From Eubacterium sp. 14-2 (GTDB lineage Bacteria > Bacillota > Clostridia > Lachnospirales > Lachnospiraceae), in assembly GCF_000403845.2 (NCBI RefSeq), contig NZ_KE159567.1:1496911-1560910 (forward strand): 64,000 nucleotides of DNA, read 5' to 3'. Under the pieces are notes generated by a model that saw only the letters and a program-made list of their open reading frames with translations, made no database searches and had not been told where the DNA came from. Made by a program: the position numbers and the translations under genes. Positions 11,906-64,000 of the stretch are shown piece after piece. Numbering within the stretch: the stretch's first letter is position 1; every line of letters begins with the position of its first letter.

Positions 11906-11952
11906 AATGTCAGATATCAATATATTGTGCGAATTTGCAAAGCGTATCAGAA

Positions 11953-11992
11953 CAGGCAGTCCCCTCAGAAACGGAGAGGACTGCCTGTTTTT
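11953..11992 (+). terminator. Rho-independent terminator after the PrsA-like gene
   Basis: Arms CAGGCAGTCC (11953-11962) and GGACTGCCTG (11978-11987) are perfectly complementary and are followed directly by five T residues. This is a clear intrinsic terminator on the + strand. Confidence 0.9.
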
Positions 11993-12135
11993 AATTCTAC
12001 AGGAAATTCCTCTGGATTTCCTGTAGAATTAAAAACAATGATGCGCAGCTCGCGGGGGCGATGTTTATTGCTACGCAATCCGCTCGCGCGCAGAGAATGC
12101 GCTATGCGCATTCTTTTTTCTCTTACAGGAAATAC
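11991..12135 (+). repeat. Dispersed intergenic hairpin repeat, copy 1
   Basis: Begins with a perfect 17-bp inverted repeat (11991-12007 and 12016-12032) with an 8-base loop and the motif CAGGAAAT/ATTTCCTG. A core follows that contains ATGATGCGCAGCTCG and GCAATCCGCTCGCGCG. The same layout recurs at 18854, 23806 (inverted) and 57199. No coding capacity is apparent. Confidence 0.85.
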
Positions 12136-12137
12136 CT

Positions 12138-13811
12138 TTAATGTGAAACCGTCACAAACTGCTCTGTAAACTGCTGATAAGGGCAGGGTTTTCCAAAGTA
12201 AAAACCCTGGATATAGTCAGGAGAAAGATGCTGAATCCGGTTCCGTTCATCCTCGGTTTCGATTCCTTCCACGCAGACATTCAGGTTCAGCGTATGTACC
12301 ATACCGCTGATTAAATCCAGCAGATTGTATTCATAGTCGTTGGCCAGGGCTTTGGCTGTGAAAGAACGGTCAATTTTGATAATATCCGGCCGCAGGTCGT
12401 GAAGGTAGTGGAAGTTGGAATATCCGGTTCCAAAATCGTCCAGAGCAAGGCGGATGCCTTTTTCTTTTAATTTTGCCAGAAGCCTGGTAAAATGAGGATT
12501 GGATTCCAGCAGGCCGCTTTCAGTCAGCTCCACAATTACATTGGAGGGAGAAACCTCCTGTCTTGCAGCAGCAGCCACGATATCGTTGATAATGTCGCTT
12601 TTAATCACCTGCACATAAGATACATTGATACTGATACGGAAATCGGGAATCCGGGACGCAATCTTTTTGCAGGCGGCAAGGGCCTGTTCTAACATCCAGC
12701 GGCCTACCGGAATAATCAGCCCTGTTTCCTCCAGAATCGGAATAAATTCTCCCGGAGAAATCATATTGCCATCGGGAGAGTGAAAGCGCATCAGGGCTTC
12801 TGCTCCGTATAAAGTATTGGAGTCGGCATGGAACAGAGGCTGGAAATAAGCCTCAAAGCCCTTACAGTCGTCGTAAACTGCCTGACGGAGAAACTGGGTC
12901 AGTTTTTTGCGTTTCAGAAACTGTTCATAATCTTCTTCCTGGAAACGATAGCAGCGGTTTTTGCCCTGACGTTTGGCCTCATTCAGAGAAAATTCCGAGA
13001 GCTTCATTACATTGGTGTAGGCAAAATCTTTGATATTGGAGATTTCCAGAATACCTCCGGATATGGTAAAGACTGCTTCGTAGTGATTTTCTTCCACAAA
13101 ACGTACAATATTATGCTGAATCTGTCTGTACAATTTTCCCGCTTCCTGATAAGTTCCTCCCTGAAAATCCAGAACCAGAAATTCATCTGCCACCACACGG
13201 TAGAGCTTCTGGGAGGGAGTGATACATCTGGCAATGCATTCTGCAGTCTGACGCAGAACCATGTCCCCATATTCAATGCCCAGTTTTTCGTTGATTTCCT
13301 TAAAGTCGTCCATGCCAAGACGCAGTAAAAATCCTTCCGGAAAAGGAGCGGGAGTCTTGTGCAGATAAGCCTGGAGGCTGGAAGAACCCAACAGGCCGCT
13401 TACGTTGTCTGCTTTTTGTCTGGCGCCGATTTCATTGATACAGCCAATCATGTACAGAGCCTGTTCCTTATTCCGGACCACATAGCCCCTGCAGTTAATC
13501 CATACAGGTTGTCCATCCAGATCCAGCCAGCGGTATTCCAGGTTGTGAAAACTGCGTTCCCCGGCCAGGAGTTCGTTCAGATCCTCCTGCAATGGCTCCA
13601 GGTCCGGAGGATAAACAAACAGTCCATGGGTGCGGACCACGTCCCGAAAGGTGTTGTCCGGAATGGAAAAACGCTGTCTGGCATGAGGAGATATATAGTA
13701 AAAGTCATTGATAAAATCATAGACATACAGGTAATCGTCCATGCAGGGGTGCAGCAGATCAATTACTTTACAGAGCTGTTCAACGGTAATTTCCTGAAAA
13801 TTTTGCTCCAA
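12138..13811 (-). CDS. Cyclic-di-GMP phosphodiesterase with PAS and degenerate GGDEF domains
   Basis: 557 aa. The N-terminal PAS-like sensor is about residues 1-130. The central GGDEF-type domain has lost the GGDEF motif (VADEF near residue 208), so cyclase activity is unlikely. The C-terminal EAL domain keeps the expected catalytic set: EALMRF, ISINVS, ELTES, LALDDFGTGYS, IIKIDRSF, CVEGIET and the final QGFYFGKP. It should hydrolyse c-di-GMP to pGpG. No transmembrane segment is evident, so it is likely cytosolic. The ATG at 13811 has an AGGAGG site. It is transcribed alone, converging on the PrsA-like gene. Confidence 0.92.
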   Translation of the reverse strand: MEQNFQEITVEQLCKVIDLLHPCMDDYLYVYDFINDFYYISPHARQRFSIPDNTFRDVVRTHGLFVYPPDLEPLQEDLNELLAGERSFHNLEYRWLDLDGQPVWINCRGYVVRNKEQALYMIGCINEIGARQKADNVSGLLGSSSLQAYLHKTPAPFPEGFLLRLGMDDFKEINEKLGIEYGDMVLRQTAECIARCITPSQKLYRVVADEFLVLDFQGGTYQEAGKLYRQIQHNIVRFVEENHYEAVFTISGGILEISNIKDFAYTNVMKLSEFSLNEAKRQGKNRCYRFQEEDYEQFLKRKKLTQFLRQAVYDDCKGFEAYFQPLFHADSNTLYGAEALMRFHSPDGNMISPGEFIPILEETGLIIPVGRWMLEQALAACKKIASRIPDFRISINVSYVQVIKSDIINDIVAAAARQEVSPSNVIVELTESGLLESNPHFTRLLAKLKEKGIRLALDDFGTGYSNFHYLHDLRPDIIKIDRSFTAKALANDYEYNLLDLISGMVHTLNLNVCVEGIETEDERNRIQHLSPDYIQGFYFGKPCPYQQFTEQFVTVSH

Positions 13812-13979
13812 TTCTCATTCCTCCTGTAAAAATTTTTTCTTTTCGTTCAATACAAAACAGTTATCTTTATTATATTTTATATTTTTGTGGAATGCAACAG
13901 CTATTTACGCACAAAACCGGGTTGTAAACAGCAGATTGTACAAAAAAATCTGCTGTCTGGGAAAGGAGTGGTTCCGGCA

Positions 13980-14016
13980 TGTAAAAATCCCATCGCAAAG
14001 CGACGGGATTTTTACA
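13980..14016 (-). terminator. Terminator downstream of htpG (bidirectional hairpin)
   Basis: Perfect arms TGTAAAAATCCC (13980-13991) and GGGATTTTTACA (14005-14016). On the - strand the hairpin ends in a T run 26 bases after the htpG stop codon. The + strand is equally T-rich, so it could work both ways. Confidence 0.85.
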
Positions 14017-14042
14017 TGCAATACTGCATGGACGGTATACTA

Positions 14043-16118
14043 TTATTTTGTCAGAAGCATCATAATCTGATTGCTTCTTAATATAAATTTGCTCATGGCT
14101 TCTGTGGACAGGGGGTGGTTGCTCAGTACAGCCAGGTCATAAAGCTGTTCGCAGAATACAGGTACATGTTCGGAATCTCTGTTGTTCAGAATATACTGAA
14201 CCAGTGCATTTCCGGTATTTAATACCAGGGTCTGGTCTCCGCCGAACATGGAAGGATCCATGCCTGCCATACCATACATTTTCATCATATCCTGCATTCT
14301 CCGTCCTTCTTCTGAGAGGGTGAGGACAGAAGCAATATCTGCATTTTTCAGTTTTTCCACAGAAACGTTCAGCTTTTCATTTCCCAGAGCTTTGCGGAAG
14401 GTTTCCGTAAGGGTCTCTCTGGCTTCCTTCAGTTCTTCCTCGGAAACTTCTTCTTTCAGAGATTCTGTCAGGTCAGCGTCAATGCGGACAAATCTGACTT
14501 TTTCATTTCTGCGCTCTAACTGAGTGATGAAAGAGGTATCAATGTTATGATCCAGAATTACCGCGTCCATGCCCTGCTCTTTGAACATGTTAATGTACTG
14601 TCCCTGCTGCTGAACATCCGTTACATAGTAAACGGGTTTGCGGGTATCTTTTTCCGTATCTTCTTCATTTTCTGCCTGTTCAGATTCAGCAGAAGATTCC
14701 GTCTGTTCTGTTTCAGAAGAAGCGTCAGCTTCCGGTTCTTCCACCTTCAGACATTCCGGAAGGGTCAGATATTTGTCCTCCAGGTTCTTAAAGAGGATGT
14801 AATCATTCATTTTGTCGCAGAATTTCTCATCTTTCAGGCAGCCGAATTTGATAAAGGGGCTGATGTCGTCCCAGTATTTCTCATAGGATTCCTTGTCGGT
14901 TTTGCACATGCCACTTAATTTGTCTGCCACTTTTTTCGTGATATAATCTGAAATTTTCTGAACAAATCCGTCGTTCTGCAGTGCACTTCTGGATACATTC
15001 AGAGGCAGATCCGGGCAGTCGATAACGCCTTTTAACAGCATCAGAAATTCAGGAATCACTTCTTTGATATTGTCTGCAATAAATACCTGGTTGTTGTACA
15101 GCTTGATGGTTCCATCGATGGAATCATATTCCGTGTTGATTTTCGGGAAATACAGGATACCTTTTAAGTTAAAGGGATAGTCCATGTTAAGGTGAATCCA
15201 GAACAGGGGCTCTTTGTAATCCTGGAATACTTTCCGGTAGAAGGTTTTGTATTCCTCATCGGTACATTCGTTGGGATGTTTGCTCCAGAGGGGATGGGTA
15301 TCGTTCAAAGCCACCGGACGTTTCACGATTTTGGCTTTTTCTGTTCGGGGAGATACTTCCACCTGTTCTTTGGTTCCGTCTTCATTTTCTTTTTCTTCAA
15401 ATTTGGCTTCTTCCACAATAGTCTCGATGACAGTATCTTTTTCTGTTACTTCATCGGCAGGGATTGTCTCATATTCAGGCTCGGCGTTTTCTTTTTCCAG
15501 GAAAATCGGTGTAGGCATGAAAGAGCAGTATTTCTCAATCACTTCTCTTGCCCGGTATTCATTGGCGAACTCCAGACAGTCCTCATTCAGGAATAAAGTA
15601 ATTTCTGTTCCAACGGTATCTTTAGAGCCGTCGGACATGTCGAATTCTGTGCCTCCGTCGCATTCCCAGTGAACGGGAACTGCGTCTTTCTGCCAGGAAA
15701 GGGTATCAATGTGCACGGCATCCGCCACCATAAAAGCGGAGTAGAAGCCCAGTCCGAAATGACCGATAATCTGTTCCTCGCTGGCTTTGTCCTTATATTT
15801 TTCCAGAAAATCCGTAGCGCCGGAGAAAGCAATCTGATTGATGTATTCTTCCACTTCGTCGGCAGTCATGCCAAGACCGTTATCAATGAATTTCAGCGTT
15901 TTTTCTTCCGGGTTTACCACGATCCGGATTTTCGGCTCAAAATCCTGCGGCAGGTCATATTCCCCCATCAGATCCAGTTTCTTTAATTTGGTAATGGCGT
16001 CGCATCCGTTGGAAATCAGTTCCCGGTAGAAAATGTCATGGTCGGAATACAGCCATTTTTTTATAATAGGAAAAATGTTGTCACTGTTGATGGAAAGGTT
16101 TCCATGTCTGTTGCTCAT
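14043..16118 (-). CDS. htpG: Molecular chaperone HtpG (Hsp90)
   Basis: Dimeric ATP-dependent chaperone. The N-terminal GHKL ATPase motifs are clear: ELISNGCDAITKL (near residue 35), DNGLGM and GHFGLGFYSAFM. Middle and C-terminal domains are complete at 691 aa. Two additions make it longer than the ~625-aa E. coli type. One is a Glu-rich stretch near residues 225-260. The other is an acidic Ser/Glu/Thr-rich insert near residues 462-495, lying in the - strand gene around bases 14630-14735. A good AAGGAG ribosome site precedes the ATG. A sigma-A type promoter and a CIRCE lie upstream. Confidence 0.97.
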   Translation of the reverse strand: MSNRHGNLSINSDNIFPIIKKWLYSDHDIFYRELISNGCDAITKLKKLDLMGEYDLPQDFEPKIRIVVNPEEKTLKFIDNGLGMTADEVEEYINQIAFSGATDFLEKYKDKASEEQIIGHFGLGFYSAFMVADAVHIDTLSWQKDAVPVHWECDGGTEFDMSDGSKDTVGTEITLFLNEDCLEFANEYRAREVIEKYCSFMPTPIFLEKENAEPEYETIPADEVTEKDTVIETIVEEAKFEEKENEDGTKEQVEVSPRTEKAKIVKRPVALNDTHPLWSKHPNECTDEEYKTFYRKVFQDYKEPLFWIHLNMDYPFNLKGILYFPKINTEYDSIDGTIKLYNNQVFIADNIKEVIPEFLMLLKGVIDCPDLPLNVSRSALQNDGFVQKISDYITKKVADKLSGMCKTDKESYEKYWDDISPFIKFGCLKDEKFCDKMNDYILFKNLEDKYLTLPECLKVEEPEADASSETEQTESSAESEQAENEEDTEKDTRKPVYYVTDVQQQGQYINMFKEQGMDAVILDHNIDTSFITQLERRNEKVRFVRIDADLTESLKEEVSEEELKEARETLTETFRKALGNEKLNVSVEKLKNADIASVLTLSEEGRRMQDMMKMYGMAGMDPSMFGGDQTLVLNTGNALVQYILNNRDSEHVPVFCEQLYDLAVLSNHPLSTEAMSKFILRSNQIMMLLTK

Positions 16119-57547: not shown

Positions 57548-58645
57548 ATGAAAAAAAATATGAGGATTTCAGTATTTCGAAATCGGATATTTGTCCTGGC
57601 GGCCTGTTTTTTGCTGTGCGGTGCCGCAGCCTGCGGAAGCGGGAACCGGCCTGCGGATGTGGAAAAAGAAACGGGAGTGGAAGCAAAGGAGAAGCCGGCT
57701 TCTTTTGAAATTACAGATCTGAGAGGGACGCCGTCGGATTATTCCAACAGAGAAAACTGGATGGAAATTCCGGAAATCACCCATGAGGTGGATACCATTT
57801 ATTTTTATCCCACCAGCTATCTGGATGATTCGGAAAATGCAAAACCAATCTGTGATATTGATAATCAGCAGATGCGGGACAGGGCCAGGGATGTTTACGA
57901 GAATCAGGGAACGGTCTATGAGGCATCCACCAATGTGTTTGCTCCTTTCTACCGACAGAGTAATATTTATCAGGTAGCAGATTTTAACCATAAAGAACTG
58001 GAAGAGTATCAGGAACGGGAACAGCGCACAGACGTATATGCCGCTTTGGATTATTATTTTGAACATTATAACGAAGGCAGGCCTTTTATTCTTGCAGGGC
58101 ACTCTCAGGGTTCCATAATGACAAAAATTATCCTTGGAGAGTATATGCAGGCACATCCGGAATACTATGAGCGTATGGTTGCGGCATATCCCATCGGATT
58201 TTCCATTACCGAAACGTTTCTGGAGGAACATCCGTATCTGAAATTTGCTGAAGATGCCGACGATACGGGTGTAATTATATCCTGGAATACGGAAGGAGAG
58301 GGAAACAAAGGACAGTTTAATCTGGTTGTGGAACCGGGGGCCATCAGTATAAACCCCATTAACTGGAAGCGGGACGATACCTGTGCCGGATTTGAGGAAA
58401 ATCTGGGAAGCCGTGTTATGAATGAGGAAACAGGAGAATATGAAATCATAGATGGAGTTGCAGACGCGCAGGTGGATACGGACCGCGGCGTGGTAATCTG
58501 CACAGCAAAGGATGTGGAGTATGCTCCGGCAGAGTTATTCGGGCCGGAAAGTCTGCATGGCCATGATTATGACTTTTATTATGAAAATCTGCGGGAAAAT
58601 GTAAAAACAAGAGTGGAGGCCTGGCTGAAACAGAACCCTGACTGA
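57548..58645 (+). CDS. DUF3089-type alpha/beta hydrolase lipoprotein
   Basis: 365 aa. The signal peptide ends in the lipobox GAAACGSG near residue 29, so it should be anchored outside the membrane. The DUF3089 core has a serine-hydrolase elbow LAGHSQGSIM near 178 and VDTIYFYPTSYLDD near 80. A late HGHDYDFYY segment may supply the histidine. Substrate unknown. It opens the unusual cluster that continues to the window end, though it may be an independent gene. Confidence 0.82.
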   Translation: MKKNMRISVFRNRIFVLAACFLLCGAAACGSGNRPADVEKETGVEAKEKPASFEITDLRGTPSDYSNRENWMEIPEITHEVDTIYFYPTSYLDDSENAKPICDIDNQQMRDRARDVYENQGTVYEASTNVFAPFYRQSNIYQVADFNHKELEEYQEREQRTDVYAALDYYFEHYNEGRPFILAGHSQGSIMTKIILGEYMQAHPEYYERMVAAYPIGFSITETFLEEHPYLKFAEDADDTGVIISWNTEGEGNKGQFNLVVEPGAISINPINWKRDDTCAGFEENLGSRVMNEETGEYEIIDGVADAQVDTDRGVVICTAKDVEYAPAELFGPESLHGHDYDFYYENLRENVKTRVEAWLKQNPD

Positions 58646-58665
58646 ACCCGGAACACGGCGCATTC

Positions 58666-58682
58666 AGCATACCGGGTATGCT
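58666..58682. promoter_or_regulatory. 17-bp palindrome
   Basis: AGCATACC, G, GGTATGCT (58666-58682) is a perfect palindrome 20 bases after the DUF3089 stop and 40 bases before the next start. It could be an operator. Confidence 0.5.
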
Positions 58683-58722
58683 TTGACGCACCACAGATAA
58701 TCTGGTATAAAGGGAGGAAAAT

Positions 58723-59091
58723 ATGAGCTTTTTGGATGATTTTGAGCGTATGGTACATGAATATCCGGAAAAAACAGCCATTGCGGATTGCCATAGTATC
58801 AGGCAGTTTGAGCCTGCCGAATATCAGGAAGCGGAACATGATATTGTCTGCAGCTTTATCAGCCCACAGATGCTGCTGGAGGGGCCGGAGTATTCTCTGG
58901 CAAAAGAATATTATGATTCCATATTCAAAGGCTGTGATACAGATTTTCTTTCTGGAAGGGATCACAGGAAGGACACGTCAGAACCAGGTCTGTATCGGCG
59001 GACGGAACAGGCAAATGGGGAGAATTCCCTGAAGCCCTGGAGCCCCCTGGATTTTTCGACGGAAGGATGTAATCCGTATGGAAAGAAATAA
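58723..59091 (+). CDS. Short ORF resembling a nonribosomal-peptide adenylation start, probably a remnant
   Basis: 122 aa behind GGGAGGA. The first ~20 residues (FLDDFERMVHEYPEKTAIAD) look like the N-terminal helix of an NRPS adenylation domain. The stretch ISPQMLLEGPEYSLAKEYYD resembles linker sequence of such enzymes. The last third looks unlike any protein. No ATP-binding motif or carrier-protein serine is present, so it cannot be an active adenylation enzyme. It is probably a deletion product of a larger synthetase, or a small protein of its own kind. Confidence 0.45.
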   Translation: MSFLDDFERMVHEYPEKTAIADCHSIRQFEPAEYQEAEHDIVCSFISPQMLLEGPEYSLAKEYYDSIFKGCDTDFLSGRDHRKDTSEPGLYRRTEQANGENSLKPWSPLDFSTEGCNPYGKK

Positions 59092-60826
59092 CTTTTTGAT
59101 TAACAGAAAGATTCATCAGTACATTCTGCCCGGTATCCTGATGACCGTTGCCGTGCAGCTTGGCAATGTGGTGGATGGTATGATTGTGGGAAATATCCTG
59201 GGACCGGATGCCATGGCTGCCATTGAGATTTCCATGCCGGTATTACTGCTGCTGCAGATGTCTGCTATGATGCTGGCTATGGGCGGTGCTGCGGAGGCTG
59301 CGGTACTGCTGGGAAAGCGGGAAACCCAGAAGGCAGGCAGTGTGTTTACAGCCTCTCTTGGAGCAGGACTGGCGGTTTCACTGGTTTTTGCACTGTTTAC
59401 ACCTGTTTTGCCGGGGCCGCTGGCCATGGCCCTTTCCGGAAATGAGACGATGGCAGCTTTGGTAAAGCCTTATATTATGGTAAATTTTGCCGGAATCCCT
59501 GTTCTGACTGCTGCCATTATTTTCAGCTATTTTATGAATGCGGATAACCATCCCCAGCTGGGAAGTGCTCTGTTTATCATTGCAAATGCAGTAAATCTTG
59601 CACTGGATGTTCTGTTTCTGCAGGAATTTCATATGGGGATGGCAGGAAGCGCTCTTTCTACAGTGATTGGTTATCTGGCGGGTATGGTGACGGTAGCGTT
59701 TTATCTGCGCTCCCCACAGCGGATGCTGCATTTACAGAGACCGGACAGGAAACTGTTGCAATATGCAAAACCGGCGGCCAGGGCCGGAATTCCCGGCGCC
59801 GCTTTTACCCTGATATCTGCCCTGAAATCTGTGATGGTCAATTCAGCTATTGTGCGGATTCTGGGAAATGATTCCATGGCAGTTTATTCTGTCTGTGCCA
59901 ATGCAGTGCTGATTGCAGAACTGTGTGTGGGAGGAATTATCGGCCTTGTCCAAAATATTGCAGGCATTCTTTACAGAGAGCGGGATTACTGCGGAATCCG
60001 TACTCTCTGTAAACGGGTGCTCATTTACAGCTACTTTGCTATTGGAGTGCTGCTGGTGATTTTCCTGGGAGCGCCGCAGGTGATTGCAGGTCTGTTCGGA
60101 ATTGGAGAAGGGGATATGCTGGAGCAGTGTAAGATGGCTCTGCGTATCTTTGCATGCAGCTTTCCGTTTTATGTATACAATAAATTTCTGATGTCTTATT
60201 ATCAGACGATTCTCCAGACGGGACTGTCCACTGTGATTACGGTACTGCAGGGGTTTGTGGTGATTGTGCCTCTTACGCTGGCGGGACTTCTCCTGCAGGG
60301 CCTTTTCGGCGTATGTATAATGGCCCTGGTCAGCGAGGCGGTTACCATATTGCTGGGATTCCTGTACCGGTTCCGGGGGCAGAGGACAGGGAGATTTGAA
60401 ACGGGAGGCGTCTATATGCTTCCTCAGGTCCGGGAGGAAAAGTTTCTGGAATGTTCCCTGGAAGATGATCTGAGTAAGGTTATGGAGTTTCGGGAGAAGC
60501 TGTTTGTATTCTGTACGGAAAATCAGATTGATGAGCGGGACGCCAATATTCTTGGCCTTGCAGTGGAGGAACTTGCGGCCAATATTGTGCAGTATGGATA
60601 CCGGGGCGGAAAAAAGAACTATATGGATATCGGTTTCACCATTCAGGATGACAAATATATGCTGAGAATTCGGGATGACGGAATTCCCTTTAATCCGATG
60701 GAGGATGAGCAGGAAGAAAAAGAAATTATTGTGGGCGGCATCAGCCTGCTGAAAAAAATCATGTCGGATTTCCAGTACATGCGGGTACTGAATATGAATA
60801 ACACCATTGTGGAGCTGGACAGATAG
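59078..60826 (+). CDS. MATE transporter fused to an RsbW-like HATPase domain
   Basis: 582 aa. Residues 1-~445 form a MATE-type exporter with about twelve membrane segments (ILMTVAVQLGNVVDGMIVGN near the start). Residues ~460-582 form a cytosolic GHKL ATPase of the RsbW/SpoIIAB serine-kinase type. Its N box is VEELAANIVQYGY near 495 and its glycine boxes are RDDGIPFNP and GGISLLKKIMSDF. Anti-sigma kinases of this type phosphorylate STAS proteins, and a STAS gene lies at 61.8 kb. Fusion to a transporter is unusual. The gene starts within the last codons of the preceding ORF. Confidence 0.9.
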   Translation: MERNNFLINRKIHQYILPGILMTVAVQLGNVVDGMIVGNILGPDAMAAIEISMPVLLLLQMSAMMLAMGGAAEAAVLLGKRETQKAGSVFTASLGAGLAVSLVFALFTPVLPGPLAMALSGNETMAALVKPYIMVNFAGIPVLTAAIIFSYFMNADNHPQLGSALFIIANAVNLALDVLFLQEFHMGMAGSALSTVIGYLAGMVTVAFYLRSPQRMLHLQRPDRKLLQYAKPAARAGIPGAAFTLISALKSVMVNSAIVRILGNDSMAVYSVCANAVLIAELCVGGIIGLVQNIAGILYRERDYCGIRTLCKRVLIYSYFAIGVLLVIFLGAPQVIAGLFGIGEGDMLEQCKMALRIFACSFPFYVYNKFLMSYYQTILQTGLSTVITVLQGFVVIVPLTLAGLLLQGLFGVCIMALVSEAVTILLGFLYRFRGQRTGRFETGGVYMLPQVREEKFLECSLEDDLSKVMEFREKLFVFCTENQIDERDANILGLAVEELAANIVQYGYRGGKKNYMDIGFTIQDDKYMLRIRDDGIPFNPMEDEQEEKEIIVGGISLLKKIMSDFQYMRVLNMNNTIVELDR

Positions 60827-60889
60827 GAAACTGTCCGTTCTGCCGCCAGAAAGAGGGCCCGTTCTGCCGCTGAAAAGGAGATACGGAAA

Positions 60890-61570
60890 ATGGAATTCAT
60901 CAGGGCAGGGGCCGGTAAGGCAGAACTTTACCGGCTGAATACCAGAATATTTGAAAATGACATATCTTTCCGGAAAAGCTATGAAAGGCTTTCTTCCATG
61001 CGTCAGCGAAAAATTGACGCTTATCGTTTCCGAAGAGATAAAAATCTTTCCCTGGGGGCAGGGCTGCTTCTGGATTACGGCCTTTCCCGCTACGGACTGA
61101 GGGAACAGGATGTTCTGATTGCCTGCGGGCCCAATGGAAAACCGTACTTACCGGAATATCCCCGGATTCACTTTAATCTGTCCCATTCCGGGGAGATGGC
61201 GCTGGCCGTGTTCGCAGAGTCTGAGGCGGGGTATGAGGTGAAATTAGGGTGCGATGTGGAAATGGTGCAGCAGGCAGATCTGGCTCTGGCAGAAAAATAT
61301 TTCTGTCCTGGTGAATACCGGTATGTGGCCGGTCAGGAAAATGAGCAGAGACAGAACGAAGCCTTTTACCGTATCTGGACATTGAAGGAGAGTTTTCTGA
61401 AAGCAGCGGGGCTGGGGCTTTCACTGGAGCTGGATGCATTTGAGATACAGACTGATGCAGACGGAAAGGTCAGGGTTTGCCAGCAGGTGGACAGTGGAAC
61501 TTATCAGTTTGAAGAATACCGGTTTGGTGAATACCAGGCTGCGGTGTGTTTTTACGAAAGGAGAGAATGA
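60890..61570 (+). CDS. 4'-phosphopantetheinyl transferase (Sfp-type)
   Basis: 226 aa. It carries the Sfp signatures GCDVEMV near residue 119 and FYRIWTLKESFLKAAG near 158, which bind Mg-CoA and the carrier-protein serine. It transfers the phosphopantetheine arm of CoA onto an acyl or peptidyl carrier protein, so a carrier-protein-based pathway is implied. No carrier protein is visible in the window; it may lie to the right. The start is the ATG behind AAGGAGA. Confidence 0.9.
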   Translation: MEFIRAGAGKAELYRLNTRIFENDISFRKSYERLSSMRQRKIDAYRFRRDKNLSLGAGLLLDYGLSRYGLREQDVLIACGPNGKPYLPEYPRIHFNLSHSGEMALAVFAESEAGYEVKLGCDVEMVQQADLALAEKYFCPGEYRYVAGQENEQRQNEAFYRIWTLKESFLKAAGLGLSLELDAFEIQTDADGKVRVCQQVDSGTYQFEEYRFGEYQAAVCFYERRE

Positions 61571-61573
61571 TAT

Positions 61574-61774
61574 ATGGCTGATTGTGATAATAAAAGAGCG
61601 TGTCCCTGTACATTTGACTGTCCAAGGCACGGAAAATGTTGTGAATGTGTGGCGTACCACCGAGATCATAATGAAGGAGTACCGGGCTGCTTTTTTTCAG
61701 AAGAGGCGGAAGCTACATATGACAGAAGTATAGAAGCATTGTGCCGCGACCGGGGATTACAGCTGGCAGAATAG
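61574..61774 (+). CDS. Small cysteine-rich protein, DUF6485-like
   Basis: 66 aa. Eight cysteines in CPCTFDCPRHGKCCEC and around it, then GCFFSEEAEATYDRSIEAL. This matches a short DUF6485-type family common in Clostridia that probably binds metal; role unknown. It begins 4 bases after the transferase stop and is surely co-transcribed. Confidence 0.75.
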   Translation: MADCDNKRACPCTFDCPRHGKCCECVAYHRDHNEGVPGCFFSEEAEATYDRSIEALCRDRGLQLAE

Positions 61775-61794
61775 AAAAAAATGAGGTGAAGCAT

Positions 61795-62091
61795 ATGAAA
61801 ATTACAGAAAACGTAAATGGAACAGCATTATGTCTTGGACTGGAAGGAAGACTGGATACTACTACTGCACCGGAACTGGAAAAGGTGCTTCAGTCCGGTC
61901 TGGATGGGATAACAGAGCTGACTTTTGACATGAAAGGACTGGACTATCTTTCATCTGCAGGTCTGCGTATCCTTCTGGGAGCGCAGAAAACCATGAAAAA
62001 GCAGGGCAGCATGAAGGTGACTCATGTGAATGAAACGATTATGGAAATATTTGAAGTTACCGGATTTGCAGATATTCTTACAATTGAGTAA
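61795..62091 (+). CDS. STAS-domain anti-sigma factor antagonist (RsbV/SpoIIAA-like)
   Basis: 98 aa from the ATG behind GAGGTG. The single STAS domain has the phosphorylatable serine in GLDYLSSAGLRILL near residue 57. Proteins of this kind switch RsbW-type kinases on and off in response to a phosphatase. Here the only visible RsbW-like domain is fused to the MATE transporter two genes upstream, so direct pairing is plausible. No sigma factor or SpoIIE/RsbU phosphatase is in the window. Confidence 0.9.
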   Translation: MKITENVNGTALCLGLEGRLDTTTAPELEKVLQSGLDGITELTFDMKGLDYLSSAGLRILLGAQKTMKKQGSMKVTHVNETIMEIFEVTGFADILTIE

Positions 62092-62098
62092 ACAGGAA

Positions 62099-63676
62099 AT
62101 GAGGGTTGTAAGAATTCCCCGGAATCCTGTGATTTTACAGCTTTTTGAGGAGTTCCGGGAGGCAGAGAAAAAAAACAGGGAGAATCTTTTTAAGATTCTG
62201 AGAGATAATCGGAATACGGAATATGGGAAAACATATGGCTTTTCAGAAATCCGGTCAGAGGAAGATTATCGCAGGTATGTTCCTCTTACAGAATATTCCG
62301 CTTACGAAAACATGGGACAGAAGCCGGAATTATATACGGTATATCCGGTGTCATGTACACTGGTTACCTCAGGAACCACCGGCGTGCAGAAAGAGTTTTG
62401 CATTACAGAGGAAGCATTGCAGCGGTATGGTTCTTATATTTACGAAATGCTCTATGAACTGTCCAAGGGCCCCTGGGGACCGCATCTGCATATGAGTGTG
62501 TTTCGGTCGGATACCGATGGAAAAAATCTGCTGTCAGCCGTTTACTATCGGTATCTGGCAGATAACGGAGCCTTTGACTGTGATGTTTTTGTGGGCGGAA
62601 AAGAACTGCTGTTTTCAGATAACATAAAAAATGTACCCTATGTGAAAGCCTGGCTTGCACTGAGCTGTCCGAACCTTGTATCCATACAGGCAATTTTTCT
62701 GTATGATATCCTTCTGCTGTTCGGCTATCTGGAGGAAAATTGGAAACAGCTTCTTTCCGATATGAAAAATGGGGAAGTCCGGGGCTGTCCGGAAAAAGGA
62801 GTAAGAGAAAGACTGCTGGCATTAAGCCCCTCACAGGAAAGGATTCAGGAGCTTGAGCATATTTTTTCGGAGGGATTTGAGGAGCCCGTTGCCCGAAAGA
62901 TCTGGAAAGAACTTCGCTTTATCAGCGGAATTGGGGGAAAATTGTACCAGTTTCAGGGGGATGCCTTAAAACATTATACAGGAGATGTTCCTGTTTCTTA
63001 TTTTGCCTATGCTTCTTCTGAGTGTATGGCAGGTGTTGCAGCAGAGCTGAATCGGGCAGAATATGCATTGCTGCCGGAGAGCGGATATTATGAATTTTTA
63101 AATAAAGAGGGAAATGTGGTTTCTCCCGGCTGTGTCCGGAAAGGTGAGATTTATGAACTGGTGGTCACCACTTTTTCCGGTCTTTACCGCTATCAGACCG
63201 GAGATCTGATAAAGCCGGTGGCTTTCCTGGATGAGACGCCGGTATTTGAAGTAATGGGCAGAAGAAATCAGGTGTCCGATATTGCCGGAGAGAAACTGTC
63301 CGGGGCTGTGGTTCAGGAGGCAGTGTCGGCCTGGGCAGAAGAACAGAGATTACGGATTTCTGATTTTGTCCTGGGTGTGGATGTCAGAACCCTGCCATAC
63401 CGTTACTGTCTGTTTGTGGAGACCATAGAGCAGGCAGGGACGTGGCAGACTTTCTGTTTTGACAGGAAACTGCGGGATTTTTCTCCGGATTATGATGATG
63501 TCAGGAATCTGGGAATGCTTGGATTCCCGGAGGTTTACAGAGTGAAAGCAGGAGTGCTGATGGAAGAATTTTTTCGGAAAACCGGGGAAAATGTTCACAG
63601 AAAACCCCATATATTTTTCAGTTCTGAGCAGACCAGACATCTGCTTCGGATGATATCAGGTGAGGAAAATGGATAA
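62099..63676 (+). CDS. GH3-type acyl-adenylating enzyme
   Basis: 525 aa. GH3 superfamily of ANL-like adenylate-forming enzymes, known best from plant hormone-amino acid conjugation. The ATP-binding motif is LVTSGTTGVQKEF near residue 90, then YASSECMAG near 303 and LYRYQTGDLIK near 363. It should activate a carboxylic acid as its adenylate and join it to an amine or thiol. The ATG lies only 7 bases after the STAS stop, with a weak ribosome site (ACAGGA), implying coupling. Bacterial GH3 proteins are little characterised. Confidence 0.87.
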   Translation: MRVVRIPRNPVILQLFEEFREAEKKNRENLFKILRDNRNTEYGKTYGFSEIRSEEDYRRYVPLTEYSAYENMGQKPELYTVYPVSCTLVTSGTTGVQKEFCITEEALQRYGSYIYEMLYELSKGPWGPHLHMSVFRSDTDGKNLLSAVYYRYLADNGAFDCDVFVGGKELLFSDNIKNVPYVKAWLALSCPNLVSIQAIFLYDILLLFGYLEENWKQLLSDMKNGEVRGCPEKGVRERLLALSPSQERIQELEHIFSEGFEEPVARKIWKELRFISGIGGKLYQFQGDALKHYTGDVPVSYFAYASSECMAGVAAELNRAEYALLPESGYYEFLNKEGNVVSPGCVRKGEIYELVVTTFSGLYRYQTGDLIKPVAFLDETPVFEVMGRRNQVSDIAGEKLSGAVVQEAVSAWAEEQRLRISDFVLGVDVRTLPYRYCLFVETIEQAGTWQTFCFDRKLRDFSPDYDDVRNLGMLGFPEVYRVKAGVLMEEFFRKTGENVHRKPHIFFSSEQTRHLLRMISGEENG

Positions 63677-64000
63677 AATCAGGGATGTGTATAAACAGGA
63701 AAAGGAACTTTTGCGGCTGGCCATGCAGCAGAGTTTTCTGAAAGAAGAGGAAGAGCCCATATATAACAGAGTTCTGGAAGGAATGGAGCATGGGGCGGTG
63801 CTGGATATTGGCTGCAATGACGGAACCAGAACCGTTGACCGGTTCGGTACCGACAGGGTTTCCAAAGTGATTGGAGTGGAATATCACAGAGAACTGGCTG
63901 ACCGGGCCAACAGTAATCATGGAGGCGGGAAATTCCATTTTTATCAGGCAGATGCGGAAAGCAGCGGGTTTGAAGATTCTCTTGAGAACATTATGGAAAT
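63669..64000 (+). CDS. Class I SAM-dependent methyltransferase, 3' end outside window
   Basis: At least 110 codons from the ATG behind TGAGGAA, overlapping the GH3 stop by 8 bases. The SAM-binding glycine motif VLDIGCNDGTRT lies near residue 44, with the acidic GVEYHRE after the second strand. Methylates an unknown acceptor; position in the operon suggests the product of the GH3/carrier pathway. Cut by the window end. Confidence 0.87.
   Translation, partial: MDKIRDVYKQEKELLRLAMQQSFLKEEEEPIYNRVLEGMEHGAVLDIGCNDGTRTVDRFGTDRVSKVIGVEYHRELADRANSNHGGGKFHFYQADAESSGFEDSLENIME

Follow-up and report, generated by a model that had tools for sequence, protein, structure and literature searches.

We identified, at the right-hand end of a 64,000-nucleotide stretch of the Eubacterium sp. 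14-2 genome (the window; G000:C1:1496911-1560910, in a 3.99-Mb genome of four contigs), a putative operon in which a MATE exporter is fused to an RsbW/SpoIIAB-type HATPase domain and is accompanied by the genes of a partner switch. Gene content and residue patterns suggest that this operon may be the half of a nonribosomal-peptide cluster that serves export and control, in which docking of a STAS protein on the exporter would tune export or synthesis post-translationally, a reading that we hold with middling confidence. It builds on the observed gene composition and linkage, the predicted fold of the fused domain, the retention and loss of its motifs, and the absence of a linked σ factor gene.

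The fusion, which an earlier annotation of the window (the original prediction) had proposed, holds: MatE (E = 4e-19) and HATPase_c_2 (E = 8e-14) both matched above cut-off within one 582-amino-acid frame, and MatE was matched in 55/55 aligned members. In an AlphaFold2 model of the exporter, the MATE part is entirely helical and a short linker connects it to a domain of GHKL type (mean predicted local distance difference test, pLDDT, 85.6; <50 for residues 544-552); the fused domain modelled alone reached a pLDDT of 87.9. The 18 best PDB matches to the domain model were SpoIIAB, RsbW, and anti-SigF complex chains, with histidine kinases ranking behind, and the domain profile matched SpoIIAB at approximately 1e-6 and RsbW at 1e-5. 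For the exporter, Foldseek returned 6fhz (template modelling score of 0.82 by target length), with the MATE structure of ClbM (4z3n) at rank 38. ClbM is reportedly a MATE exporter tied to an NRPS-type (nonribosomal peptide synthetase) cluster, that of colibactin, and to our knowledge has neither a kinase-like domain nor a partner switch.

The proposed order of a phosphopantetheinyl transferase (PPTase), a Cys-rich protein, a STAS protein, a GH3 enzyme, and a methyltransferase was likewise borne out, each gene by open reading frames (ORFs) and those for the PPTase, STAS, and GH3 proteins also by Pfam (Table 1). The SpoIIE/RsbU phosphatase that had been anticipated to the right of the window was found there, and once sequence past the window edge is included, the partner-switch set (STAS, SpoIIE-type phosphatase, and free RsbW-like kinase) is complete. 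Because no intergenic gap from the exporter through RsbW exceeds 63 bases, these genes are likely to form one transcription unit. The STAS serine, located in the motif L-S-S-A-G-L, is conserved in 54/54 distinct STAS sequences from the loci and, by analogy, is the probable phospho-acceptor. In the proposed mechanism, the SpoIIE-type phosphatase would sense a cue and dephosphorylate the STAS protein, the free RsbW (possibly also an intact fused domain) would rephosphorylate it, and unphosphorylated STAS would dock on the exporter's RsbW-like domain and thereby switch export, or membrane-located production, on or off. The STAS protein would be the partner common to the free RsbW and the exporter's domain, and the switch would end in a protein-protein contact at the transporter instead of at a σ factor.

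The closest relative found, an uncultured Eubacterium sp. (L036; exporter identity of 85%), presented the order DUF3089 - NRPS - MATE-HATPase - PPTase - STAS - GH3 - methyltransferase - SpoIIE - RsbW. Its NRPS (2982 aa) contains three adenylation domains, two condensation domains, a terminal reductase, and one carrier domain over threshold; a paralogue elsewhere in the Eubacterium sp. 14-2 genome (L005) has three carrier domains over threshold. The adenylation-like remnant that had been noted before the exporter is NRPS-derived, consisting of five collinear fragments of the L036 NRPS (residues 1-27, 113-122, 215-229, 1732-1782, and 2970-2982 of 2982) that span its first to last residues; therefore, the window NRPS underwent at least four internal deletions. 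Two of the fragment matches are strong (E = 1e-22 and 1e-10) and one has E = 3e-6, while the two short fragments have E of approximately 0.01 as protein and 3e-5 and 1e-5 by blastn. Since the ORF is a deletion relic, we rejected the idea that a small, functional adenylation protein is encoded before the exporter. Reductase-ended NRPS clusters of gut clostridia make peptide aldehydes and pyrazinones; compared with these, L036 and L005 hold three intact modules and the window only a relic. Decay of the whole operon after loss of the NRPS was not seen: summed over six genes (the methyltransferase, which has no outgroup, being excluded), the branch leading to the window carries 37 amino-acid changes at outgroup-constant sites and that leading to L036 carries 38, although the window lineage may have lost its NRPS only recently. 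The acyl-conjugate product that had been proposed for the operon is not supported, because the carrier belongs to an NRPS of three modules with a terminal reductase, which relatives keep intact; in L045 and L053, a second NRPS occupies the place of GH3. The GH3 protein fell below the NCBIfam OlsH cut-off.

The fusion is widespread. Queried with the fused domain of the window, 20/200 family genomes and 55/392 order genomes gave matches (lists that include some short, free HATPase frames), and a phylum search with the domain alignment gave matches in 54/398, fused and free together. A contig scan gave 78 loci, mostly titled Lachnospiraceae, with some Oscillospiraceae and one Riflebacteria; profiles found a fused copy in 75 of these, L059 and L061 being cut at contig ends and L112 matching over 92 residues only. 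With 112 distinct fused copies aligned, a rare fusion or an assembly artefact was rejected. A rapidly built tree of 111 fused proteins, with some placements unsure owing to long branches, put 81 in one clade (SH-aLRT, a Shimodaira-Hasegawa-like approximate likelihood ratio test, of 100) that includes 72 copies having an NRPS at up to 12 kb, eight without one in the available sequence (the window included), and one degenerate copy.

Partner-switch genes were counted around fused and plain MATEs. For 13/33 fused MATEs of the family sample (31 loci, 29 with a fused copy), a gene for STAS, SpoIIE, or RsbW lies at a distance of up to 10 kb; the figure is 0/42 for plain MATEs, which were scored in 38 of 40 control loci chosen by eye, not at random, from ten of the same genomes (L142 and L167 had no MATE above threshold). 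An NRPS adenylation domain was near 12/33 and 1/42 of these, respectively. Among 83 fused MATEs of the contig-scan sample, whose retrieval relied on an alignment enriched for NRPS-linked copies, 51 had partner-switch genes and 74 an NRPS adenylation domain nearby; four loci are in both fused samples under two identifiers. The fusion itself recurred in the family and order searches and in the contig scan. These counts bear on the possibility that the fused domain is a general regulatory ATP-binding add-on of a clostridial MATE family, with partner-switch neighbors in some lineages only. A clade of 18 fused MATEs, of which only four have an NRPS near, suits that explanation, as does the Cys that most copies in this clade carry at G1 position 535. 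Nonetheless, we consider it highly improbable given the contrast of 13/33 with 0/42 and the match of the fold, as modelled on the window domain, to anti-σ kinases. Cys replaces Gly at position 535 in 15/112 fused copies overall (e.g., L015, L017, L022, L026, and L027), and no common neighbor was found in the nine of these 15 loci that were read by eye, which also suits an add-on.

The original prediction linked a partner switch to export without any σ factor, and the neighborhood agrees: STAS, GH3, SpoIIE, and RsbW genes co-occur with the fusion, and no PF04542 σ factor gene lies within approximately 174 kb of the operon (at about C1:1.554-1.564 Mb), the nearest matches being C1:1343736 and C1:1738824, approximately 210 and 174 kb off. 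A σ factor gene beside the operon was therefore rejected as far as PF04542 detects one. Sigma-like genes were near 3/33 (family sample) and 7/83 (contig scan) fused MATEs and 7/42 plain MATEs, showing no enrichment near fusions; divergent σ factors could be missed in these counts because the neighborhood profile was built from 12 of the 22 σ loci of the Eubacterium sp. 14-2 genome. Classical control, with the free RsbW binding a σ factor encoded elsewhere and the fused domain merely titrating STAS, would draw on the 22 PF04542 matches in this genome and on the free RsbW copies, all 23 of which keep E498, N502, D533, G535, and G554. Distance and lack of enrichment make it improbable, as does the inventory of the genome: of four PF01740 matches, three are in two MATE-HATPase clusters, and the fourth adjoins a SpoIIAB-like HATPase and a σ factor gene at C2:695-696k (spoIIA-like by position); no other free RsbW-like kinase or PF01740 match was found in the genome.

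The ATP-site residues of the fused domain separate two kinds of copies. Among the 112 distinct fused copies, E498 is conserved in 112, N502 in 99, D533 in 100, G554 in 109, and N574 in 111; the window copy retains N502, D533, G535, and G554, while its first G2-box Gly and its lid differ by eye. With copies that have lost N502 or D533 termed degenerate, and neighbors defined as annotated genes within 1.5 kb (GH3 or SpoIIE counted directly downstream, NRPS on either side), all 11 copies directly before GH3 or SpoIIE were degenerate, as compared to none of the 72 NRPS-adjacent copies, which keep both residues, and two of the remaining 29. Nine loci (L013, L037, L039, L040, L041, L043, L060, L091, and L111) pair an undegenerate NRPS-side copy with a degenerate copy before GH3 or SpoIIE; the NRPS-side copy of L013 has lost G554. 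L037 and L040 belong to the cultured relatives Petralouisia muris and Sporofaciens musculi, whose NRPS is intact, and a degenerate copy of L037 lies at 12842-14626. For the degenerate copies before GH3 or SpoIIE, docking would be a better fit than catalysis, and we argue from these residues that binding is what persists there.

Retention of N502 and D533 in 72/72 NRPS-adjacent copies, together with the short linker from the last transmembrane helix to the domain in the model, would also suit a flux sensor, in which the conformation of the exporter sets the kinase activity of the fused domain and STAS phosphorylation reports export load to RsbW and to further targets controlling synthesis. This alternative appears unlikely in view of the 11/11 degenerate copies and of a G2 box that is altered, by eye, even in intact copies, features that leave kinase activity of the fused domain uncertain. 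Alternatively, STAS and the fused domain may serve as a scaffold that brings the NRPS/GH3 enzymes to the exporter for hand-over of the peptide at the membrane, with phosphorylation setting assembly. An NRPS is the nearest annotated neighbor on one side, within 1.5 kb, of 72/112 distinct fused copies, and degenerate copies are compatible with docking of this kind; however, fused MATEs with STAS, SpoIIE, or RsbW and with no NRPS in the available stretch occur in other families of the phylum (L176-L179 and L182), and we judge the scaffold quite unlikely.

Several results weigh against STAS docking on the exporter as we propose it. A minimum of two changes along the tree would account for the degenerate label, and therefore the 11 copies are not independent. 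In 20 later regions with 16 fused copies, used as an out-of-sample set (L186 and L192, identical in sequence to L082 and L049, were left out), SpoIIE-adjacent copies without an NRPS were degenerate in only 4/6, i.e., L176-L179 (of which L177 and L178 are near kin), with L182 and L184 intact; the NRPS-adjacent copies were degenerate in 0/2 (L187 and L189 intact). L018 holds an undegenerate fused copy just after GH3, and even intact fused copies lack, by eye, the first G2-box glycine and have a short lid. In the family sample, neither an NRPS or GH3 gene nor a partner-switch gene is present within 10 kb of 14/33 fused MATEs. A mirror-tree test over 46 loci (L009 and L099 being one locus under two identifiers) detected no co-variation of STAS and HATPase beyond that of the MATE part (partial r = 0.03; permutation p = 0.33). 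Finally, the genome contains two SpoIIE (PF07228) matches besides that of the window operon, which is the best of the three.

A second cluster on contig C2 (L005) comprises a MATE-HATPase gene, an NRPS of 2995 aa in one frame (AusA model, 1533 bits, below the cut-off of 2500), and two STAS genes; no SpoIIE or RsbW was found by profiles in 32 kb around it (L005 and L006). Because both clusters contain STAS genes and the best SpoIIE match is in the window operon, the C2 cluster could draw on this operon for phosphatase, kinase, and PPTase. Apart from the SpoIIAB-like protein, the free RsbW-like kinase of the window operon is the only one found in the genome, and the operon may therefore have been kept after loss of its own NRPS to serve the C2 NRPS/MATE-HATPase/STAS cluster; the genome has two other PPTase-family genes. 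Directly downstream of the C2 STAS genes are three tandem genes that resemble serine recombinases by eye (L005:3066-7890, minus strand), and a mobile element may have split the C2 cluster from a phosphatase/kinase end. A further NRPS region at G000:C2:387510-438090 presented condensation matches in frames of 1505, 2458, 2092, 3301, and 1124 aa and a PPTase-family match at C2:437833.

The link between exporter and switch looks broader than that with NRPSs, judging from the NRPS-free sets in other families. L182, for example, has the order STAS - 436-aa protein - MATE-HATPase with a canonical RsbW lid - SpoIIE, and no free RsbW was found by profiles in 13 kb, the fused domain being the only RsbW-like domain found there. 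In L177, a MBOAT acyltransferase (13255-14745) and a peptidoglycan-binding-domain protein (11939-13309) are located beside the STAS/MATE-HATPase/SpoIIE set, hinting at another cargo. It is conceivable, though we advance it tentatively, that exporters with an integral partner-switch domain, occurring as pairs of a kinase-competent and a pseudokinase form, constitute a class that gates small-molecule export or synthesis by direct STAS docking in gut Clostridia and other Bacillota, independently of σ factors and with the transporter as output.

The closest parallel is the NRPS clusters of the archaeon Methanobrevibacter ruminantium M1 (mru0066-0071, mru0351-0352, and mru0512-0516), reported in 2010, where, as here, an NRPS lies beside a MatE efflux protein, serine phosphatases, and an anti-σ antagonist, and a further cluster holds a PPTase, STAS, a phosphatase, and an anti-σ kinase (PMC2812497). 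With this layout in print, the claim that no described system resembles the operon needs trimming; the available part of that report does not mention a fusion, and its authors propose sensing and regulation of NRPS expression (PMC2812497). Four of the M. ruminantium genes (mru_0514, mru_0069, mru_0352, and mru_0351) appear in a table of lauric acid-responsive genes (PMC5816558). No paper recognised as describing a MATE-HATPase fusion was found in a search of open-licence literature. The RsbU/V/W and SpoIIE/SpoIIAA/SpoIIAB switches share with the operon a SpoIIE-type phosphatase, a STAS protein with a conserved serine, and a GHKL kinase, but here no σ factor gene is near and one kinase-like domain, sometimes degenerate, is built into a transporter. 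In Vibrio fischeri, SypA is also a STAS protein under an RsbW-like kinase and a PP2C phosphatase (SypE), with a post-transcriptional output whose target is given as unknown in the available text; the switch controls biofilm, however, and the kinase sits in a response regulator rather than a transporter (PMC12826045). The Vogesella TciK/TciR pair includes an unusual REC-RsbW fusion affecting the secondary metabolite indigoidine, yet it is a two-component system with no transporter and, according to its authors, no RsbV homologue (PMC12826045). SulP/SLC26 transporters carry a fused domain of the partner-switch type from the STAS side, whereas the kinase side is fused here (PMC8256260). Some archaea carry SpoIIAA/AB/E-like sets although no bona fide σ factor is described in Archaea (PMC2686161), which favors a switch with a different target. 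Partner switches are mainly described for σ factors, and the passages available to us give the targets of those without one (SypA and the archaeal SpoII-like sets) as unknown; in the exporter fusion, a switch domain and its likely target are parts of one protein, so that the question becomes open to experiment. The module is also a marker for many gut NRPS clusters that await study, and it provides an entry point to the timing of product synthesis and export.

Table 1. Features of the operon in the window and beyond its edge.
Feature	Position	Strand	Basis or remark
DUF3089 protein	57548..58645	+	Pfam DUF3089, E 1e-41; first gene of the cluster, likewise in L036
Relic ORF of three-module reductase-ended NRPS	58723..59091	+	tblastn with L036 NRPS
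MATE exporter fused to RsbW/SpoIIAB-type HATPase domain (residues ~455-582)	59078..60826	+	Pfam MatE, HATPase_c_2
PPTase	60890..61570	+	Pfam ACPS, E 1e-20; AASDHPPT_N
Cys-rich protein, 66 aa	61574..61774	+	ORF
STAS (RsbV-like) protein, 98 aa	61795..62091	+	Pfam STAS, E 8e-14, above cut-off
GH3-family adenylating enzyme	62099..63676	+	Pfam GH3, GH3_M, GH3_C; listed ORF from 62030
Class I methyltransferase	63660..64000	+	Crosses window edge, ends at L004:5434
SpoIIE/HAMP phosphatase	L004:5424-7106		Beyond window; SpoIIE E 9e-47 plus HAMP
Free RsbW-like kinase	L004:7135-7560		Beyond window; HATPase_c_2 E 3e-19
Glyoxalase-like gene	L004:7695-8276		Beyond window

The DUF3089 protein, which we take to be hydrolase-like, is also encoded before the NRPS in L036, L040, and L041. 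As read from the sequence, the likely start of the STAS gene is the ATG at its first tabulated position, and the GH3 gene likewise starts at the tabulated position rather than at that of the listed ORF. The Cys-rich protein had no match in Pfam (E 0.01) or NCBIfam (E 0.001), and its gene is missing between PPTase and STAS in L036; its profile also matches in L040, L041, L045, L047, L051, and L056. Other domain fusions occur: SpoIIE is fused to HATPase_c_2 in other loci, a MATE-HATPase is fused to an HD-CE domain (L034:9112-11766), and STAS is fused to an APH-type phosphotransferase near fused MATEs (L034:7877-9055 and L029:8747-9946). Beyond the glyoxalase-like gene is a hairpin of 20 pairs that was listed as terminator-like for the minus strand. 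Further downstream of the operon (L004:8456-11470) are, as judged by eye, genes for two similar-looking proteins (302 and 402 aa), then one for a small protein and one for what may be a papain-like peptidase.

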